Origin: Candidatus Rokuibacteriota bacterium
GTDB lineage: Bacteria > Methylomirabilota > Methylomirabilia > Rokubacteriales > CSP1-6
NCBI GenBank assembly: GCA_016184365.1
Contig: JACPCW010000077.1
Span: 1-64,000 of the forward strand
DNA length: 64,000 nt
Direction of reading: 5' to 3'
Below are positions 12,328-56,712 of the stretch, piece after piece. A program made the position numbers and the translations under genes. The notes beneath the pieces were generated by a model. It had not been told where the DNA came from and made no database searches. It was given only the letters and a program-made list of their open reading frames with translations. Position 1 is the stretch's first letter. The number at the start of each line of letters is the position of its first letter.

Positions 12328-13263
12328 CTACGCGCGCTCCGGCTGGTGGCCGACCGAGCCCTCGTACTTCGCGAGCTCGTCCGGCGGCAGGAACGCTTCC
12401 TCCCACGCGCGGATCCGATCGAAGCCGGCGAACTGGTGCACGTTGCCGATCGGGTGCTTGCCGAAGCGCTCGATGAAGCGCGCCTCGGCGGCCGGGCCCT
12501 CGTCGCGGAGCGCGACGCCGAAGTCGTACACGGCCTGCATCGTCGCGCGGTGCGCGGCGCCGGCGAAGATCGTGATCGCGATGCCGAGCCGCTCCATCTC
12601 GTCGCGCGACAGGCGCGGCGACACGCCGGTCTGGTTGTAGAAGATCGGGCCCTTCACCTCGCGGCACACGCGCTCGACCTCCGCGACCGACGTCGGGCCT
12701 TCGACGAAGGCCATGTCGGCGCCCGCGTCGAGATACGCGTTCGCGCGGCGAATGGCGTCGTCGAGCGTGCCGCCGCTCGCGCCGCGCGCATCGGTGCGCG
12801 CGATGATCACGAAATCCGGATCGACCTCGCGCCGCGCGGCGTCCGCGGCGCGGTACTTGCCGGCGGCTTCCTCGAGCGACACGACCTGCTTGCCCGCGAC
12901 GTGGCCGCAGCGCTTCGGCATCACCTGGTCCTCGATGTGGATGCCGGCGACGCCGGTCTGCACGTACTCGCGCACCGTTCGGATCACGTTGATCGCGTTG
13001 CCGTAGCCGTTGTCGGCGTCGGCGACGACGGGCACGCCGACGGCGTTGGCGATGTAGCGCGCGTTCAGGTGCATCTCGCTCATCGTCGCGAGCCCGGCGT
13101 CCGGCATGCCGAGCAGCGCCAGCGACGTGCCGTAGCCGGACATGTAGACGGCCGGAAACCCGACGGCCTCGAAGATCTTCGCCGTCATCGCGTTGTAGCA
13201 GCCCGGCACGAGCACGGGCTTTCCCGAGCGGATCAGCTCACGCAGCCGCGTCGTGGCTTTCAC
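12328..13263 (-). CDS. Isocitrate lyase/PEP mutase family protein (copy 2)
   Basis: 311 residues, a TIM-barrel enzyme of the PEP mutase/methylisocitrate lyase superfamily that cleaves or rearranges C-C or C-P bonds of alpha-keto or hydroxy acids. Visible are the metal motif DADNGYGN and the loop KRCGHVAGKQ carrying the catalytic Cys, with IHIEDQ before it. The GTG start overlaps the stop of the upstream paralogue (GTGA), so the long open frame upstream of it is only a shadow. The two paralogues plus amidase form one transcription unit, perhaps for a dicarboxylate or oxaloacetate-type substrate (inference). Confidence 0.88.
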   Translation of the reverse strand: MKATTRLRELIRSGKPVLVPGCYNAMTAKIFEAVGFPAVYMSGYGTSLALLGMPDAGLATMSEMHLNARYIANAVGVPVVADADNGYGNAINVIRTVREYVQTGVAGIHIEDQVMPKRCGHVAGKQVVSLEEAAGKYRAADAARREVDPDFVIIARTDARGASGGTLDDAIRRANAYLDAGADMAFVEGPTSVAEVERVCREVKGPIFYNQTGVSPRLSRDEMERLGIAITIFAGAAHRATMQAVYDFGVALRDEGPAAEARFIERFGKHPIGNVHQFAGFDRIRAWEEAFLPPDELAKYEGSVGHQPERA

Positions 13264-14117
13264 TTGAAGCGCTCCTCGATCGCGTGCCACCAGTCGAAGC
13301 CGACACGCTTGAAGATGTCCATCGGCGCGAGCACCGGGCCATCGGGCCAGTCGCTGCCGGTTTCTTTCAGCCGCGTGAGCGCGCGCTCGATCGCGGTGAC
13401 CGCGGCCGCCATGGCGACGCCGGGGAAGATCACGAGCTTGTAGCCGAGCCGCTCGAGCTCCGCGATCTTCACGGCCGGGGTCTTGCCGCCGGCGACCATG
13501 TTCGCGAGCAGCGGCGCCTTCACCTCGCGCGCGACGCGCGCCATCTCGTCCTCGCTCTGCGGCGCCTCGAAGAAGATCATGTCGGCGCCCGCTTCCGCGT
13601 AGAGATTGGCGCGCTCGATCGCGTCGTCGAGGCCGGTGACGGCGCGCGCGTCGGTGCGCGCGATGACGACGAAGTCCGGGTCGGTGCGGTACTCCGTGGC
13701 CGCGCGGATCTTGTCGGCGAACTCCTTCGCGGGGATGACCTGCTTGCCCGCGATGTGCCCGCACTTCTTCGGCGCGACCTGGTCTTCGATGTGGAAGCCC
13801 GCGACGCCGGCGCGCTCGTACTCGCGCACGGTGCGCACGACGTTCAGCGGGTTGCCGTAGCCGGTGTCCGCGTCGGCGATGACCGGCACGCCGACGCACG
13901 ACGCGAGATGGCCCGCGTGCGTCGCCATCTCGGTGAGCGTGGCGAGCCCGAGATCGGGCTGGCCGAGATGCGACGCGGCGGTGCCGGCGCCGGTCATGTA
14001 GATGGCCTGGAAGCCGGCGGCCTCGATGAGCCGCGCGGAGAAGCCGTCGTACGCGCCCGGCGCGACGACGATGCCGGGCTCGTGGAGCAGGTGACGGAGT
14101 CGGGTGGTGCTGCGCAT
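13260..14117 (-). CDS. Isocitrate lyase/PEP mutase family protein (copy 1)
   Basis: 285 residues, clear paralogue of the next gene. It shows PGAYDGFSARLIEAAGF at the start, metal motif DADTG at 82-86, FHIEDQ, and KKCGH with the catalytic Cys at about 119. Family members include methylisocitrate lyase, oxaloacetate hydrolase and carboxyphosphonoenolpyruvate mutase; sequence alone does not separate these. The ATG at 14117 is chosen because homology starts there; upstream codons are antisense to the divergent SDR gene. It heads the three-gene minus-strand unit, and the 81-bp gap to the SDR gene should hold divergent promoters. Confidence 0.9.
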   Translation of the reverse strand: MRSTTRLRHLLHEPGIVVAPGAYDGFSARLIEAAGFQAIYMTGAGTAASHLGQPDLGLATLTEMATHAGHLASCVGVPVIADADTGYGNPLNVVRTVREYERAGVAGFHIEDQVAPKKCGHIAGKQVIPAKEFADKIRAATEYRTDPDFVVIARTDARAVTGLDDAIERANLYAEAGADMIFFEAPQSEDEMARVAREVKAPLLANMVAGGKTPAVKIAELERLGYKLVIFPGVAMAAAVTAIERALTRLKETGSDWPDGPVLAPMDIFKRVGFDWWHAIEERFK

Positions 14118-22032: not shown

Positions 22033-22087
22033 GCAGCTTGTCGAGCAAGCGACGTGCCGCTGACATGCAGGTTAAGCTGTCGTGGTG

Positions 22088-22194
22088 GGGCGAAGCCGCA
22101 GCACGGCGTGGCATCGGGAGGTGAGGCCGGTCGACGGCCGAGCCGACACTACGATGAAGAGCCGCAGGCGGAGCGTGTGCGAGGCGAGTCTGTG
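22088..22194 (+). repeat. R1 leader repeat, copy A
   Basis: 107 bp from GGGCGAAGCC to GTCTGTG, nearly identical to copies at 30730-30836 (minus) and 55752-55858. Its last bases are the GTG start codon of the following E1-like gene. An open frame from GTG 22085 to TGA 22195 gives 36 residues (GRSRSTAWHREVRP early, CEASL at the end) and overlaps that start as GTGA. GAGGCGAG, 7-14 bases before the start, can act as a weak ribosome site. The middle carries the hairpin GGCCG-GTCGA-CGGCC. Confidence 0.85.
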
Positions 22195-24585
22195 AGAATC
22201 GATCCCGACCGCCTCGCGTGTCTCCGTGCGCTCGAACAGAAAGTGCTGTGGCTCTCGACGTGGATGGTGCACCACGCGAACCACGTCCGGCCGCATCACG
22301 ACGGGCTGAAGGTCGGCGGCCACCAGGCGTCGTCGGCGTCGTCGCTCGACATCATGACGGCGCTCTACTTCGACGTCCTGCGGCCCGAAGATCGCGTCGC
22401 CGTGAAGCCGCACGCGAGCCCGGTGTTTCACGCGATCCAGTACCTCTACGGCAGGCAGAGCCGCGAAAGCCTCGAGCGCTTCCGCGCGCTCGGTGGCGCG
22501 CAGGCGTATCCGTCGCGAACGAAGGACACGGACGACGTCGATTTCTCGACCGGCTCGGTCGGGCTCGGCGTCGCGCTCACGCTGTGCGCCGCGCTCGTCC
22601 AGGACTACGTCGCGCTGCACGATCTGCTGCCGCCGGGCGTGCGCCCGGGCCGCATGATCGCCATCGCCGGCGACGCCGAGTTCGACGAGGGCAACGTCTT
22701 CGAGGCGATGCTCGAGGGCTGGAAGCACGACGTGCGCAGCGTCTGGTGGATCGTCGACTACAACCGCCAGAGCCTCGACACCGTCGTCAGCGATCGGCTC
22801 TTCACCCGGATCGAGGACATCTGCCGGACGACGGGCTTCGACGTCGTCGTGCTGAAGTACGGCAAGCGGCTCCAGGAGGTCGCGCGCCGTCCGGGCGGCG
22901 AGGCGCTCATCCGCTGGATCGACGAATGTCCGAACTCGGTGTACTCGGCGCTCACGTTCAAGGGCGGCGCCGCGTGGCGCGCGCAGCTCGAGCGCGACCT
23001 CAAGCAGGACGAGACGCGCGCCATCATCGACGCCCTCGACGATGCCGCGCTGCATGCGCTCATGACGAACCTCGCCGGCCACGATCTCGAATCGCTGCTC
23101 GAGGCGTTCCACGCCGCGCCGGACGACCGGGCGCGCTGCTTCCTCGCCTACACCATCAAGGGCTACCGGCTCCCGCTCGCGGGTCACAAGGACAACCACG
23201 CCGGCATGCTCACGCCGGGGCAGCTGACGGCGTTTCAGCGTGAGATGCGCGTGCCGGAGGGGCGCGAGTGGGATCCGTTCGTCGGACTCGACGTGTCCGA
23301 GGACCGGTTGCGCGCGTTTCTCGCGAGCTCGCCCCTCGCGAGCACGGAACGTCGTATCCACGCAGCGCCCGACGTCGCCGTGCCGGACACGGTCGACATC
23401 CCGCGCGACGTCGAAGTCTCGACGCAGACCGGCTTCGGCCGGATCCTGAGCGATCTCGGCTCCGGCGACACGGAGCTCGCCGCGCGGCTCGTCACGACGT
23501 CACCGGACGTGACGCTGTCGACCAACCTCGGCGGCTGGGTGAATCGCCGCGGCATCTTCCATCGCTCGGAGTACCGCGACGCGTTCCGCGACATGGACGT
23601 GCCGTCGCCGCAGAAGTGGGTGATGTCGCCGTCCGGCCAGCACTTCGAGCTCGGCATCGCGGAGCACAACCTGTTCATCATGCTGGCGGCGCTCGGACTG
23701 TCCGCGCCGCTGTTCGGCGTGCGGCTGCTGCCGGTCGGCACGCTCTACGATCCGTTCGTGCTGCGCGGTCTCGATGCCTTCGGCTATGCGTGCTACCAGG
23801 ACGCGCGCTTCATGGTCGTCGGCACGCCGGCCGGCATCAGCCTCGCGCCCGAGGGCGGCGCGCATCAGTCGATCATGACGCCGCTCGTCGGCATGGCGAT
23901 GGACCGGCTCGCGAGCTTCGAGCCCGCGTTCGTCGACGAGCTCGCGGAGATGATGCTGTGGGGCTTCCGTCATCTGCAGGCCGCCGACGGCGGCTCGGTG
24001 TACCTCCGGCTCACGACGCGTCCGCTGCCGCAGCCGCAGCGCGAAATGACGCCGGCGCTGCGCGCCGCGGTGATCGAAGGCGCGTACTGGATACGCGAGC
24101 CGGAGCCCGACACCGATCTCGTGCTCGTGTACTGCGGCGCCGTGGCGCCGGAAGCCATGGCCGCGCACGCCGCGATCGTCGACGACGTCGCCGGCGCCGG
24201 ACTGCTGGCCATCACGTCGCCGGACCGGCTGTACGCCGACTGGCGCGCGAGCAACACCGGAACGCGGTCCCGATCACGCATCGAGCAGCTGCTCGCACAG
24301 GCGCCCGGCGCGGCGCTCGTGACCGTGCTCGACGGACACCCGGCGACGCTGTCGTGGCTGGGCTCGGTGCACGGACAGCGCATGTATCCGCTCGGCGTCG
24401 ATCACTTCGGACAGTCGGGCGACATCGCGGACCTCTATCGCCTGCACGGCATCGACGAAGACGCGATCATCGACGCGGCCGCGCGCGCGTGTCTCGACCG
24501 ATTGAGCTGGGGACCCCGAAATGGCCCCCAGACCCCCAACGCTCGGAGCGCCCCGGGCAACCCGTGGCGCTCCTCGAATTCCTAG
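22192..24585 (+). CDS. Transketolase/pyruvate dehydrogenase E1-like thiamine diphosphate enzyme
   Basis: 797 residues in one chain, built like homodimeric E1 (AceE) and transketolase. The N-terminal thiamine-diphosphate domain shows GHQASSASSLDIMTAL and the cofactor motif GDAEFDEGN with a downstream N. A central pyrimidine-binding domain (GQHFELGIAEHNLFIM) and a C-terminal domain follow. It decarboxylates a 2-keto acid or transfers a two-carbon unit; the exact substrate is uncertain. The GTG start sits at the end of repeat R1, overlapping its small frame. The last 26 residues (from SWGPRNGPQTP) are encoded by repeat R2, so the native C-terminus was replaced. The stop shares CTAG with the convergent nudC stop. 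Confidence 0.85.
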   Translation: MRIDPDRLACLRALEQKVLWLSTWMVHHANHVRPHHDGLKVGGHQASSASSLDIMTALYFDVLRPEDRVAVKPHASPVFHAIQYLYGRQSRESLERFRALGGAQAYPSRTKDTDDVDFSTGSVGLGVALTLCAALVQDYVALHDLLPPGVRPGRMIAIAGDAEFDEGNVFEAMLEGWKHDVRSVWWIVDYNRQSLDTVVSDRLFTRIEDICRTTGFDVVVLKYGKRLQEVARRPGGEALIRWIDECPNSVYSALTFKGGAAWRAQLERDLKQDETRAIIDALDDAALHALMTNLAGHDLESLLEAFHAAPDDRARCFLAYTIKGYRLPLAGHKDNHAGMLTPGQLTAFQREMRVPEGREWDPFVGLDVSEDRLRAFLASSPLASTERRIHAAPDVAVPDTVDIPRDVEVSTQTGFGRILSDLGSGDTELAARLVTTSPDVTLSTNLGGWVNRRGIFHRSEYRDAFRDMDVPSPQKWVMSPSGQHFELGIAEHNLFIMLAALGLSAPLFGVRLLPVGTLYDPFVLRGLDAFGYACYQDARFMVVGTPAGISLAPEGGAHQSIMTPLVGMAMDRLASFEPAFVDELAEMMLWGFRHLQAADGGSVYLRLTTRPLPQPQREMTPALRAAVIEGAYWIREPEPDTDLVLVYCGAVAPEAMAAHAAIVDDVAGAGLLAITSPDRLYADWRASNTGTRSRSRIEQLLAQAPGAALVTVLDGHPATLSWLGSVHGQRMYPLGVDHFGQSGDIADLYRLHGIDEDAIIDAAARACLDRLSWGPRNGPQTPNARSAPGNPWRSSNS
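24508..24576 (+). repeat. R2 double-hairpin repeat, copy 1
   Basis: First hairpin: TGGGGACC paired with GGCCCCCA around CCGAAAT. Second: GGAGCGCC/GGCGCTCC enclosing C-CGGG-CAA-CCCG-T. It lies inside the 3' end of the E1-like gene and up to the convergent nudC stop. Compared with copy 9, the inner stem changes on both sides (CGGC/GCCG to CGGG/CCCG), keeping pairing. Confidence 0.85.
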
Positions 24586-30198: not shown

Positions 30199-30729
30199 TC
30201 ATACGCTCGGCAACAGTCGTTCGAGTCGCATACGGGTGATGTCGAAGAGTTCCGCGAGCGCGGCGGCCACTTCGACCTCGCGCGTGTTGCGCAATCGTGA
30301 TTCGAACGCCGCGAGGATCGACGCCTTGTCGTGGTGGCGCACGGCGATGATGAACGGGAAGCCGAACGTCTCGCGGTACGCCACGTCGAGTTGCCTGAAG
30401 CGCACGTGTTCTTCGTCGCCCAATCGGTCGAGACCGGTGGACGCCTGTTCCGCGACGGACGATTCCGTCATGATCGCTGCACGCACCGCTTGGCCGGCCA
30501 GACCGGGATGTGCGCGCAAGAGCTCCAATTGCTCGGCCGGCGACGCCGATCGCACGACGGCGACCATCGCGTCGTGCAGCGCGACGGCGTGCGCGAACGG
30601 CCGCGTGGACCACGCGCGCTCAGCCACCCACGGCGCGTGTTCGAAGATCGGACCGACCGCGCGCGTGAACGCATCGCGGTCCATCCGATTGACTGCCTGC
30701 AGCGTCAGCACGACGGTTGCCCGGTCCAT
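30199..30729 (-). CDS. uraD: 2-oxo-4-hydroxy-4-carboxy-5-ureidoimidazoline decarboxylase
   Basis: 176 residues, the OHCU decarboxylase giving (S)-allantoin in uric acid breakdown. Helical family landmarks: AFTRAVGPIFEHAPWVAERAW, LRAHPGLAG with the catalytic His, TESSVAEQASTGLDRL, and FGFPFIIAVRHHDKASIL. The ATG lies directly at the end of repeat R1 copy B, and the TGA of R1's small frame overlaps it as TGATG. Divergent from the pucG-like gene and next to puuE, both ureide genes. Confidence 0.95.
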   Translation of the reverse strand: MDRATVVLTLQAVNRMDRDAFTRAVGPIFEHAPWVAERAWSTRPFAHAVALHDAMVAVVRSASPAEQLELLRAHPGLAGQAVRAAIMTESSVAEQASTGLDRLGDEEHVRFRQLDVAYRETFGFPFIIAVRHHDKASILAAFESRLRNTREVEVAAALAELFDITRMRLERLLPSV

Positions 30730-30836
30730 CACAGACTCGCCTCGCACCCGTTCCGTTGGCGGCTCTTCATCGTAGTGTCGGCTCGGCCGTCGACCGGCCT
30801 CACCTCCCGATGCCACGCCGTGCTGCGGCTTCGCCC
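30730..30836 (-). repeat. R1 leader repeat, copy B
   Basis: 107 bp, reading toward uraD. It differs from copy A mainly near the 3' end (GCCAACGGAACGGG in place of GCAGGCGGAGCGTG). An open frame from ATG 30842 to TGA 30729 encodes 37 residues with the same GRSRSTAWHREVRP start and CEASL end; its stop shares the A of the uraD ATG. The upstream 69 bp to the divergent aminotransferase start show no further feature. Confidence 0.87.
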
Positions 30837-30905
30837 ATCCATCGATCGGGCACTCTGGCTGATTTTTCCCCGCCGGGCAAGGACGATCCGGTAAGTTCGG
30901 AAGCG

Positions 30906-32147
30906 ATGACGGACGTCGGCGATCTCGTCCCCGGTCCTCGCATTCTCCTCGGCCCGGGCCCGACGATGGCGGACCCTCGCGTGCTTCGCGCGATGGCGAT
31001 GCCGTTGCTCGGCCAGTTCGACCCCGAGTTCACCGCGATCATGAACGAGGTCATGGAGCTGTCGCGGTTCGTCTGGCAGACGACGAACGCGCGGTGCTTC
31101 CCGGTGTCCGGCACGGGCCGCGCCGGCCTCGAGGCCGCGATCGCGTCGCTGGTCGAGCCGGGTGAGCGCGTCGTCGTCGGCGAGTGCGGGCGCTTCGGCC
31201 TCCTGCTCATCGAGATCGCCGAGCGCTGCGGCGCCGAGGTCGCCGTCGTCCGCGGCTCGTGGGGGCGTGTGATCGAGCCGGACGCGATCAGGGCCGCGGT
31301 CGCCGAGAAACCGACGAAGCTGGTCGCCATGATTCACGGCGAGACGTCGACCGGCGTGCTCCAGCCGCTCGACGACATCGCGCGCATCGCGCACGAGCAC
31401 GACGCGCTGCTCATGGCCGATTGCGTGGTGACGCTCGGCGGCTCGGACGTCGCGGTCGATCGCTCGCGCCTCGACGTCGCCGTCGCCGGCACGCAGAAGT
31501 GCCTGTCGTGTCCGTCCGGGCTCGCGCCCGTCACGTACAACGAGGAAGCGGAAGCCGCGATCAAGGTGCGGCGGACGAAAATCCGGTCGAACTATCTCGA
31601 TCTTGGCCAGCTCGCCGATTACTGGAGCCCGTCGCGCTTCAATCACCACACGGCGCCCACGGCGATGGTCTACGGACTGCGCGAAGCGCTGCGCGTGATC
31701 CGCGACGAGGGGCTGGAGGCGCGCTTCGCGCGGCATCGCCGGCATGGCGATGCGCTGCGCGCCGGCATCGACGCGCTCGGGCTGTCGCTCTTCGGCAAGG
31801 AGCCCGCGCAGCACCGGCTGCCGTTCATCACGCCGGTGATCGTGCCGGACGACGTGGATGAGCTGCGCGTGCGCCGCCGCCTGGTCGATGATTTCGGCAT
31901 CGAGATCGGTGCGGCGTTCGGCCCGCTGCAAGGCAAGATCTGGCGCATCGGCACGATGGGCTATTCCGCACGACGACAGAACGTCCTAACGTGTCTGGCC
32001 GCGCTCGAGCACGTGCTGCGTGCGGAAGGCGTGAAGTCCGCGCCGGGCGCCGGCGTCGACGCCGCCGTGGCGCATTACGCGACGAGCGGTGAGCGCGCGA
32101 CGGCCGTGGACGACAGCCTGGGCGCCCGCGGGATCGGCCGGGTATGA
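30906..32147 (+). CDS. pucG: Class V aminotransferase, probably ureidoglycine-glyoxylate aminotransferase
   Basis: 413 residues, PLP fold type I. Signatures: PGPRILLGPGPTMADPRVLR, GQFDPEFTAIMNEVM, FPVSGTGRAGLEAAIAS, the cofactor Asp in LMADCVVTLGG and the PLP lysine in AGTQKCLSCPSG. The family covers alanine- or serine-glyoxylate and (S)-ureidoglycine-glyoxylate aminotransferases. Its overlap with puuE (ATGA) and closeness to uraD favour the ureidoglycine role, by context. The ATG at 30906 is supported by homology starting there. Confidence 0.88.
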   Translation: MTDVGDLVPGPRILLGPGPTMADPRVLRAMAMPLLGQFDPEFTAIMNEVMELSRFVWQTTNARCFPVSGTGRAGLEAAIASLVEPGERVVVGECGRFGLLLIEIAERCGAEVAVVRGSWGRVIEPDAIRAAVAEKPTKLVAMIHGETSTGVLQPLDDIARIAHEHDALLMADCVVTLGGSDVAVDRSRLDVAVAGTQKCLSCPSGLAPVTYNEEAEAAIKVRRTKIRSNYLDLGQLADYWSPSRFNHHTAPTAMVYGLREALRVIRDEGLEARFARHRRHGDALRAGIDALGLSLFGKEPAQHRLPFITPVIVPDDVDELRVRRRLVDDFGIEIGAAFGPLQGKIWRIGTMGYSARRQNVLTCLAALEHVLRAEGVKSAPGAGVDAAVAHYATSGERATAVDDSLGARGIGRV

Positions 32148-33052
32148 CCTATCCCCGCGATCTCGTCGGCTACGGCTCGACTCCGCCCGATCCGAAATGG
32201 CCCGGCGGCGCGCGCATCGCGCTGTCGCTCGTCGTGAACTACGAAGAAGGCGGCGAGCGCTCGATCCTGCACGGCGACAACGAATCCGAGACGTTCCTGC
32301 AGGAAGTCGTCGGCATTCCGCCGTCGATCGCCGGCCGCAACCTGTCGGTCGAGTCGATGTACGAGTACGGCACGCGGGTGGGCTTCTGGCGGCTGATGCG
32401 GACGTTCGCGCAGCGCCGCGTCACGGTGAGCTTCTTCGCGGTGGGCATGGCGCTCGAGCGTCATCCGGATGCCGCGAAGGCGATGGCCGAGGGCGGCCAC
32501 GAGATCGTGAGCCACGGCTGGCGCTGGATCGATTACCAGCACGTGCCGGAAGCGGTCGAGCGCGACCACATCAAGCGCTCGGTCGACGCGATCACGCGCC
32601 TGACCGGCTCGCGCCCGCTCGGCTGGTACACCGGGCGCACGAGCGAGAACACGCGCCGCCTCGTCGTCGAGGAGGGCGGCTTCCTCTACGACTCGGACGC
32701 CTACAACGACGACCTGCCGTACTGGATCGAAGAGAGCGGCACGCCGCATCTCGTCGTGCCGTACACGCTCGATCAGAACGACATGAAGACGGTGGCGCCG
32801 GGCGGGTTCGCGACGGGCGACGACTGGCTCTCGTACGTGCGCGACGCGTTCGACGTGCTCTACGCCGAGGGCGCGGAGCGGCCGGCGATGATGTCGGTCG
32901 GGCTCCACCTGCGGCTCATCGGACGCCCCGGACGTTTCGCGGCGCTGCTGCGCTTCCTCGATCACGTGCAGAAGCACGACCGCGTCTGGGTCACGCGCCG
33001 TATCGACATCGCGCGCCACTGGATCGCGCAGCACCCGTACCGCGCGCGGTAG
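32144..33052 (+). CDS. puuE: Allantoinase, PuuE type (polysaccharide deacetylase fold)
   Basis: 302 residues with the near-invariant PuuE opening YPRDLVGYGSTPPDPKWPGG, then VVNYEEGGERSILHGD, MYEYGTRVGFW, GGHEIVSHGWRWIDYQ and GWYTGRTSENTRRLV. These define the metal-independent-looking allantoinase branch of the NodB fold. It opens allantoin to allantoate. The start overlaps the aminotransferase stop, so both are one unit. Confidence 0.94.
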   Translation: MTYPRDLVGYGSTPPDPKWPGGARIALSLVVNYEEGGERSILHGDNESETFLQEVVGIPPSIAGRNLSVESMYEYGTRVGFWRLMRTFAQRRVTVSFFAVGMALERHPDAAKAMAEGGHEIVSHGWRWIDYQHVPEAVERDHIKRSVDAITRLTGSRPLGWYTGRTSENTRRLVVEEGGFLYDSDAYNDDLPYWIEESGTPHLVVPYTLDQNDMKTVAPGGFATGDDWLSYVRDAFDVLYAEGAERPAMMSVGLHLRLIGRPGRFAALLRFLDHVQKHDRVWVTRRIDIARHWIAQHPYRAR

Positions 33053-34561: not shown

Positions 34562-34978
34562 TCAGGGGCCCGGGATGCCGTGGAGCGCGCGCCAGTGACG
34601 CGCGATCTCCGCGCGCGTGGCGATCCAGATCTGGCCGCGCTCGCGCACGTGGTCGAGGATGCGCTCGAGCGTCACGATGCGCGCCGGCCGTCCGATGATC
34701 CGGAGATGCAACCCGACCGACAGCATCTTCGGCGCCGTCGCGCCCTCGCGCAGCAGCCAGTCGATCGCGTCGATGACGTACATGCACGGATCCGGAGCGC
34801 CGACGACTTCGTCACGTACTTCGTAGACCGCCTCGTTCCGCTCGTCGCCGGCCGTCACCGAGAGATCGGCGCCTTCCTCGACGTTCACGACGAGCGAGAG
34901 CGCGAGGCGCGCGCCCCCGGGCCACTTCGGATCCGGCGGACGGCCGCCGTAGCCGCGCAGATCGCGGACGTAGCTCAT
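34562..34978 (-). pseudogene. PuuE-like deacetylase with in-frame internal deletion
   Basis: 138 codons, open throughout. The first about 70 residues match PuuE (RDLRGYGGRPPDPKWPGG, VVNVEEGADLSVTAGDERNEA) and the last about 65 match its C-terminus (VIDAIDWLLREGATAPKMLS, GLHLRIIGRPARI). Compared with the 302-residue paralogue at 32144, some 164 residues with the NodB catalytic core (HGWRW and TGRTSENT regions) are absent, the join lying near APDPCM. The start overlaps the previous stop (ATGA). Without the core it cannot be an allantoinase; a residual binding role is conceivable but unlikely. Confidence 0.78.
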
Positions 34979-43305: not shown

Positions 43306-44139
43306 TCAGGCCATCGAGCCGCCGTCGACCGTGTAGAGCCCGCCGGTCACGTAGCTCGCGTCGTCGGAGAGCAGGAACGTCACGAGGGCGGCGACTTCCT
43401 CCGGCGTCCCGTACCGCCGCATCGGGATCGTCGACGCCATGCGCGCCTGGAACGCGCGGGGGTCGTTCGGGCTGAAGCCGCGCTCGAGCTCGTCGACCAT
43501 GGGCGTGTCGATCGGCGCCGGACAGATCGCGTTCACGCGAATCCCGCGCCGGACGAACTCGATCGCCGCCGTGCGAGTGAGTCCGATGACGGCGTGCTTC
43601 GACGTCGTGTACGCGACCAGGTTCGGACTTCCGCGCAGGCCGGCGATCGATGCCGTGTTCACGATCGCCGCGCCGTCGCGGCCGGCCATCGCCGGCGCGA
43701 CGTGCTTCAGCCCCAGCCACACGCCCCTCACGTTCACCGCGAGCACGCGGTCGAACATCTCCTCGGGATAGTCGACGAGCGGCGCGACCGGCCCGAGGAT
43801 GCCCGCGTTGTTGAAGAACCGGTCGATGCCGCCGAACGCCTCGCGCGCCGCGCGCACGTAGCGTTCGACCTCGGCGCTCCGGGTGACGTCGGCCGTCACC
43901 GTGATCGCCTCGCCGCCGGCCTTGCGCACGGCGGCGAGCGTCGTCTCGAGCCCGCCGGCATCACGGTCGACGAGCGCGAGACGCGCGCCTTCGGACGCGA
44001 GGCGCGCGGCGACGGCCCGGCCGATGCCTCCGGCCGCGCCGGTGATGACCGTCACCTTGTCGGCGAAGCGTCGCCGGTGGTCGAGGGGCGGCCCGGGTTC
44101 CCCGGGGTGCCCCGAGCGCTGGGGGGTGTGGGGGGCCAT
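43306..44139 (-). CDS. SDR family oxidoreductase (FabG-like)
   Basis: 277 residues. TGAAGGIG is at about 33-40, NNAG in the middle, Ser plus Y-T-T-S-K (VAYTTSKHAVIGL) form the active site, and YTVDGG ends the protein. Normal SDRs begin 8-10 residues before the TGA motif. Here the only suitable ATG (44139) lies in the loop of R2 copy 5, and residues 1-about 22 (MAPHTPQRSG...) are repeat-encoded. The nearest other start, a GTG inside beta-1, would shorten the core. Downstream of the RidA gene on the same strand. Confidence 0.9.
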   Translation of the reverse strand: MAPHTPQRSGHPGEPGPPLDHRRRFADKVTVITGAAGGIGRAVAARLASEGARLALVDRDAGGLETTLAAVRKAGGEAITVTADVTRSAEVERYVRAAREAFGGIDRFFNNAGILGPVAPLVDYPEEMFDRVLAVNVRGVWLGLKHVAPAMAGRDGAAIVNTASIAGLRGSPNLVAYTTSKHAVIGLTRTAAIEFVRRGIRVNAICPAPIDTPMVDELERGFSPNDPRAFQARMASTIPMRRYGTPEEVAALVTFLLSDDASYVTGGLYTVDGGSMA

Positions 44140-55711: not shown

Positions 55712-55751
55712 GCCCGCGCCCTGGCCCGGGTGCTAGTCTCGGGCGATGGCC

Positions 55752-55858
55752 GGGCGAAGCCGCAGCACGGCGTGGCATCGGGAGGTGAGGCCGGTCGACG
55801 GCCGAGCCGACACCACGATGAAGAGCCGCAGGCGGAGCGGGTGCGAGGCGAGTCTGTG
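55752..55858 (+). repeat. R1 leader repeat, copy C
   Basis: 107 bp, full length. Its frame runs from ATG 55746 to TGA 55859 (37 residues, same core as copies A and B). The stop overlaps the ATG of copy D's frame (TGATG). Copy A differs by one synonymous base in ACT/ACC and one replacement (Val/Gly before CEASL). Confidence 0.87.
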
Positions 55859-55864
55859 ATGGCC

Positions 55865-55923
55865 GGGCGAAGCCGCAGCACGGCGCGGAGCCGCAGGCGG
55901 AGCGGGTGCGAGGCGAGTCTGTG
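55865..55923 (+). repeat. R1 leader repeat, copy D (48-bp internal deletion)
   Basis: 59 bp with both R1 ends but lacking 48 bp (16 codons) from the middle. Its frame, ATG 55859 to TGA 55924, has 21 residues and still ends CEASL. The stop overlaps the nucleotidyltransferase ATG. Copies C, D and the gene thus form a chain of three frames joined by TGATG. Confidence 0.85.
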
Positions 55924-56712
55924 ATGGACCTCGACGCCGAGCTGCGGCGCATCACCGAAGCGCTCGACGGCGGCGGTGTGCGGTATGCGCTGGCCGGCGG
56001 GCTCGCCGTCGCGATCTACGCGACGCCGCGCGCGACCGAAGACGTCGATCTGCTCGTCGCCGGCGCTGATCTCGACGCGGCCATCGCGGCGATCACGGGG
56101 CTTGGGTTTCGTGCGGCCGGGCCGCCGATGGACGTTGCGCGCGGCCGGCTGCGCATTCACCGTCTGCTGAAGTTCGAGCAGCAGGACCTGCTGCTCGTGG
56201 ATCTGCTCGTTCCCCAGGATCAGGATCTCGGCCGACTGTTGGACGAGCGCAGTTTCGTCGACTGGCAGGGTCAGCGGATCGCCGTGGTGAGCATCGACGG
56301 TCTGAGTGCGCTGAAGCGGTTGCTCGGGACGGCGCAGGATCGCGCCGACGTCGATTCGCTCGCGCCGGTCCGAGGCATGCCTGATCGGGATGTCGGTGCG
56401 GCGCTCCGGGCTGCATCAGTATTGCGCCGACTCTGTCTCAGCCTGCCGCATCTCGCGACGCCGTCGGAAGCGAGGCTGCTGGCGCGCTTCCATCAGCTGA
56501 CGACCGCACCCGAGGGCGTCACGACCGGCGACATCGACGCGCTCGCCGCCGGCTGGCGGACGTGGTGGCGTGCCGGTCGCGTGGCGGAGCTCAGCGCCAT
56601 GGCCGAGCGTGTGACGCGCGCGGTGATCGACAGTGACCGGCGTCTTGCCACGTACGCCGTCGCTGCGCAGGCGGCCCGAACGGACGCCGCGACGCGCGGG
56701 GGTGCCGCGTGA
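55924..56712 (+). CDS. Nucleotidyltransferase-fold protein
   Basis: 262 residues. The NTase motif GGLAVAIYATPRATEDVDLLV-type (GG, R-x-T-x-D-x-D with the metal Asp pair) stands at about 22-44, a further Asp at LVDLL, and an MNT/AbiEii-like continuation to about 145 (GTAQDRADVDSL). The last 110 residues are helical and unfamiliar. Such proteins serve as antitoxin/toxin or tRNA-modifying enzymes; role unknown here. It starts at the end of R1 copy D and overlaps the next gene (GTGA). Confidence 0.8.
   Translation: MDLDAELRRITEALDGGGVRYALAGGLAVAIYATPRATEDVDLLVAGADLDAAIAAITGLGFRAAGPPMDVARGRLRIHRLLKFEQQDLLLVDLLVPQDQDLGRLLDERSFVDWQGQRIAVVSIDGLSALKRLLGTAQDRADVDSLAPVRGMPDRDVGAALRAASVLRRLCLSLPHLATPSEARLLARFHQLTTAPEGVTTGDIDALAAGWRTWWRAGRVAELSAMAERVTRAVIDSDRRLATYAVAAQAARTDAATRGGAA

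Follow-up and report, generated by a model that had tools for sequence, protein, structure and literature searches.

A start-codon repeat in Rokubacteriales with a small frame that is probably coupled to the downstream gene

In the genome of a soil bacterium from an uncultured phylum, we found copies of a short repeat, R1, lying in the sense orientation directly on the start codons of unrelated genes. R1 is likely to be a mobile repeat of a MIRU-like kind: it would insert at start codons and leave gene expression intact through translational coupling. The copies agree in position, orientation, overlap with the gene and conservation of a small frame, relatives of several loci are free of the element, and the wider family is dispersed through the order with a covarying hairpin. 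From these features we infer that R1 is translated, that it is coupled to the gene by reinitiation and that it is mobile; the genes that carry it probably stay translated.

R1 copies in the source genome and in the window

The source genome (G000) is a 5.58-Mb Rokubacteriales MAG in 146 contigs. It holds at least 36 readable R1 copies at 30 sites: 12 L copies (113–115 nt), three L2 copies (111 nt) and 19 near-identical S copies, each exactly 66 nt long. Of the remaining two, one measures 54 nt and the other is truncated; a few degenerate copies (C9, C22) come in addition. The in-frame size forms (54, 66, 111 and 114 nt) are all multiples of three. Unit lengths are 65, 110 and 113 nt; 6 of the 30 sites are tandem pairs, and L (113), L2 (110) and S (65) units are intermixed within the arrays. 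One S copy (L036, G000:C17:73733–73792) ends abruptly inside GAGT, where it is joined to an apparent truncated luciferase-like monooxygenase gene (...FAMISDHFHPW).

The window, the whole 64,000-nt stretch of DNA that was analysed, includes the L copies A and B. Copy A (22083–22195, + strand) overlaps the start of a transketolase-like gene at 22192 by GTGA, and copy B (30729–30842, − strand) overlaps by TGATG an OHCU decarboxylase gene (30729–30202, − strand; PF09349, E = 4e-47). The sequence-only reading had described copies C and D as a tandem chained to a nucleotidyltransferase, and we confirmed that arrangement together with the open frame of D. Copy C (L form, 114 nt; 55746–55859, + strand) carries a 37-codon frame, MAGRSRSTAWHREVRPVDGRADTTMKSRRRSGCEASL followed by a stop, and copy D (S form, 66 nt; 55859–55924, + strand) a 21-codon frame, MAGRSRSTARSRRRSGCEASL followed by a stop, that runs from ATG to CEASL-TGA; the frame of C ends in CEASL as well. 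One TGATG (55857–55861, + strand) joins the stop of frame C to the start of frame D, and another (55922–55926, + strand) joins the stop of frame D to the start of the 262-aa nucleotidyltransferase-like gene, which would be coupled to D (55924–56712, + strand; ATG at 55924). A −10-like hexamer, TAGTCT (55734–55739, + strand), stands 6 nt 5′ of the ATG of copy C, a leaderless spacing. The RNA folding energies of C and D were not better than those of shuffled sequences.

The nucleotidyltransferase matched PF14907 weakly (23.2 bits, below the cut-off of 31.2). It forms a single frame, and most of its relatives (L195–L205) align in two pieces, 1–149 and about 152–251, reported as separate open frames, which suggests that the gene is a fusion or that two genes overlap. 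The window also contains a second dispersed, hairpin-like repeat, TGGGGGCCCCGAMATGGCCCCCAGACCCCC... (24480, 36468, 36569, 44487 and 59770 on the + strand; inverted copies at 44131, 46973 and 61543), a 300-nt direct duplication with 74% identity (12845–13144 and 13699–13998) and a 135-nt inverted pair with 79% identity (32144–32278 and 34844–34978).

R1 lies where the native start codon would be

At nearly all sites the downstream gene begins within the end of R1, either through TGATG (−1) or through a 4-nt ATGA or GTGA overlap (−4). An open reading frame of at least 150 codons followed from the overlapping start in 24 of 30 terminal copies, compared with 82 of 297 control RTGA sites drawn from the same flanks. 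When translated from the overlapping start, all but one of 27 downstream frames (26/27) had a Pfam match, and their functions were unrelated, among them GpsA, MobA-like, LysR, enoyl-CoA hydratase, AMP-binding, ABC, response regulator, prolyl oligopeptidase and methylmalonyl-CoA mutase. The 5′ end of the element carries an in-frame RTG in 32 of 36 copies. Of the 26 sites at which R1 has a 5′ RTG, 8 had a TANNNT motif 5–9 nt upstream; among control RTGs the figure was 16 of 1827. This spacing is that of a leaderless gene.

We compared several of these loci with element-free relatives. The two congeners G001 and G002 yielded no R1 copies. In G002, the LysR gene has TACAAT, 8 nt and then its own ATG; in G000, the same TACAAT and 8 nt lead to the ATG of the element, and the gene's ATG comes after the element. 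The D-glutamate cyclase gene has TAGAAT, 6 nt and an RTG both in G000 and in G002. Homologs of the nucleotidyltransferase in other genera (49–55% identity) are element-free with a leaderless RTG start, placed 6–9 nt after TACATT, TACAGT or TATATT. Because element-free relatives keep the same promoter spacing to the gene's own start, this comparison places R1 at the position of the former native start codon.

The small frame is conserved

Within a set of 30 copies selected for in-frame length, frame 0 was free of stops in all 30, and the other frames had stops in 12 and 2. Chaining through ATGA or TGATG requires a repeat period of 2 mod 3. The sequence-only reading had proposed a check of frame preference among length variants, and the preference was there: across the order, the period was 2 mod 3 at 21 of 26 distinct RTGA-joined tandem junctions and 0 mod 3 at the rest; among arrays lacking RTGA it was 2 mod 3 in 8 of 20 (P = 9e-7, binomial test against 1/3; P = 0.006, Fisher test; the junctions are partly non-independent). 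The RTGA-joined periods took nine lengths (44, 47, 50, 53, 62, 65, 68, 95 and 110 nt).

Copies that have lost the frame or its start point in the same direction. All four such copies (C98, C89, C130 and C2:171433) precede a gene with its own Shine–Dalgarno (SD) motif, whereas an own SD and start within 45 nt occurred in 1 of the 32 other, intact copies (hypergeometric P about 9e-5, for an SD motif picked after looking at the data). The 5′ end of copies in other genera takes the forms GCGAAGCC and GCGAGCC, which are one base apart, and coupled copies offset this change by length such that RTG...EASL-stop is kept open; it was open in 45 of 52 coupled and 32 of 70 uncoupled copies, counts in which the subfamilies are related and the events non-independent. 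At L083, the first unit is read through outside this frame, and it is the second unit that overlaps a nuoK-like gene, with EASLL-TGATG at its end.

Synonymous changes made up 15 of 37, against about 25% expected. Since this enrichment is only mild, the mini-peptide appears to be barely, or not, under selection; the peptide is probably unimportant and it is the frame that matters. The earlier proposal that the small frame is translated finds independent support in the period and SD tests. The arrangement seen at C and D is more than chance: 36 copies at 30 sites were analysed, and both coupling junctions are present at almost all of them.

R1 might instead provide an SD-like GAGG(CGAG) about 10 nt 5′ of the start, which would allow de novo initiation and make the mini-frame incidental. 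The GAGGCGAG at the 3′ end is indeed conserved in nearly every R1 copy. However, it is also found in non-coupled copies, and an SD-like role leaves unexplained the 2 mod 3 periods, the restriction of broken frames to genes with another SD and the in-frame 5′ RTG. We regard this explanation as unlikely.

A hairpin family across Rokubacteriales

The family pattern AGCCGCAG-N(8-38)-CGAGGCGAGYCT was present in 30 of 60 Rokubacteriales genomes and 13 of 27 genera, with up to 49 copies; reversed-pattern controls were near zero, and all matches in named genomes were to Candidatus Rokuibacteriota. The middle of the element forms a hairpin whose changes are compensatory: the 48-nt form had 94.5% of cells paired, compared with a shuffle mean of 80.3% and a maximum of 83.5%. 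Other genera have coupled and uncoupled subfamilies side by side. Many of their copies are uncoupled, with a stop before them and an SD further on; start coupling occurs before lpd, nuoK, purH, epimerase and ABC genes.

The strength of the compensatory pairing and the many uncoupled copies would both fit a non-coding hairpin, acting as DNA in transposition or as an RNA processing or stability signal, whose frame merely follows from composition and insertion site. Such a hairpin does not account for a frame 0 that stays stop-free in the length-selected copies, for the frame-linked periods or for the SD association, and we think it improbable as the whole explanation. Hairpin and frame can both be real.

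Two further subfamilies differ in design. One with a 33-nt core (L122, L123, L128, L141, L155 and others) ends in GAGCCTGAGTGAG or GCGTGAG, is off the EASL frame, is uncoupled to starts and has its own conserved tail. The other, with a 28-nt core (L147, G005:C44:18590–18707; L105, G017:C75), forms arrays with a period of 42–45 nt (0 mod 3), read through in one frame in place of chaining.

Copy D belongs to a standing S subfamily

Copy D had been described as having lost 48 bp. It is 48 nt shorter than C, and as a private in-frame deletion derivative of C it would differ from C minus 48 nt by one mismatch, that is, one extra substitution would be required; both copies also share GCC as their second codon. 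However, exactly 66 nt is the length of 19 copies at unrelated sites, D among them; D is identical to two S copies at C28 at every position but the second codon, and S-like copies occur in other genera. A private deletion is quite improbable and is not needed to account for D, which probably did not arise by loss: it is a member of S, an established subfamily. L is more likely the enlarged form, S plus an insert, because S is commoner and has like copies in other genera; the insert carries a GGCCGTTCGACGGCC-type hairpin that closely resembles the core of other family members. With the deletion premise unsupported, D alone is weak evidence that the frame is used.

In four of the six G000 tandem arrays (C28, C78, C2:206603 and C17:55746), neighbours share the otherwise variable second codon, even where S stands next to L or L2. 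This sharing may be a record of array formation.

Proposed mechanism and mobility

We propose that the target of R1 is a start codon, belonging either to a leaderless first gene or to a gene within an operon, and that on insertion the RTG of R1 would replace the native start. A short frame would then cross the element and end in ...EASL-TGA, with the last bases of R1 (CTRTGA, with or without TG) overlapping the displaced native start as ATGA, GTGA or TGATG. The ribosome that finishes the mini-frame would be passed on to the gene by termination-reinitiation. Because of this handover, insertion would be tolerated and could be repeated in tandem, as in C, D and the nucleotidyltransferase.

The contrast between G000, which has at least 36 copies at 30 sites, and two congeners in which we found no copy is in keeping with this proposal. 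No transposase was found for R1, and a search for similar DNA carried by phages or plasmids found none. Perfect 10-bp direct repeats flank the core at C70:21101–21214 (ATGAGTGAAG) and C143:3775–3885 (ATGAAGGGCG) and are possible target-site duplications. They were seen at these two terminal sites only, and the overall excess of flank repeats, with tandem-internal copies removed, was weak (P = 0.006 over 10 columns; P = 0.07 without the RTGA columns).

A more specific version of our preferred reading, which we put forward tentatively and consider rather doubtful, is that R1 is a transposase-less hairpin element that itself recognises start codons, with an origin independent of the mycobacterial MIRUs and the same arithmetic. 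Its targets would be leaderless 5′ ends and operon overlaps, perhaps recognised via transcription or translation initiation complexes, and it would spread by swapping a gene's start for its own leader frame.

Two other readings fare worse. A short Arg-rich frame immediately 5′ of a start codon could be a regulatory leader peptide, attenuator or riboswitch of the downstream gene, which is very unlikely since the downstream genes are functionally unrelated, element-free relatives exist and the window has no Rfam match at gathering score to a known structured RNA leader. A REP-type element mobilised by a RAYT (Y1) transposase would likewise be short, palindromic, dispersed and tandem, and is hardly tenable because Y1_Tnp (PF01797) had no match in G000, G041, G005, G014 or G019, all many-copy MAGs of 90–100% completeness. 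PF01797 was thus missing from most of the high-copy genomes; G070 has one match. No tRNA or tmRNA identity was found for R1.

MIRUs are usually regarded as a mycobacterial peculiarity. With R1, an apparently unrelated family from another phylum shows this arithmetic of 2 mod 3 units and RTGA or TGATG joints a second time. The recurrence points to insertion at start codons, combined with translational coupling, as a survival strategy of small repeats in general. The R1 copies also offer a natural experiment on reinitiation, in which copies are intact or frame-broken, leaders stand singly or in chains, and sites are leaderless or operonic, and these genomes make it testable how a gene-less element finds start codons.

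Comparison with known systems

A literature search did not find this repeat reported; the sole match to 'MIRU-like' was a Trichodesmium species name. REP and BIME elements are short, GC-rich imperfect palindromes, dispersed and in tandem, with no genes of their own. R1 shares all of these features. Unlike REPs, which are extragenic and have no start-codon coupling, R1 is start-coupled, and the five high-copy genomes named above have no RAYT. Rickettsia palindromic elements are situated within coding genes, whose protein gains residues from them; R1 resembles them as a small, dispersed palindromic element whose reading frame is kept open, but forms a separate leader frame before the gene.

The closest likeness is to MIRUs, described by Supply et al. 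(1997) and known to us through passages of PMC12548453, PMC3914561 and PMC4213456. In those passages, MIRUs are 46–101 bp repeats at about 41 loci, often in tandem (PMC3914561). They insert at start codons and contain an ORF that is coupled to the gene at −4 nt (PMC12548453), and their arrays have 77- and 53-bp units (PMC4213456). R1 is likewise short, contains an ORF, is found at tens of loci and is often in tandem, although its L unit is slightly above the quoted range; tandem periods of the R1 family across the order are 44–110 nt. It too lies on start codons with a 4-nt overlap between ORF and gene, and it has long and short units (113 and 65 nt, among others, beside 77 and 53 bp in MIRUs), all 2 mod 3. 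R1 differs from MIRUs in also using the 1-nt TGATG overlap, in several insertions that closely follow a −10 box on leaderless first genes and in a hairpin core with compensatory changes. According to PMC4213456, MIRUs are restricted to M. leprae and the M. tuberculosis complex, whereas R1 belongs to an unrelated phylum (Rokubacteriales, Methylomirabilota). Because R1 falls outside that taxonomic range and is likened to MIRUs by description, not by sequence, we do not file it as a MIRU; judged by these descriptions, it works like one.
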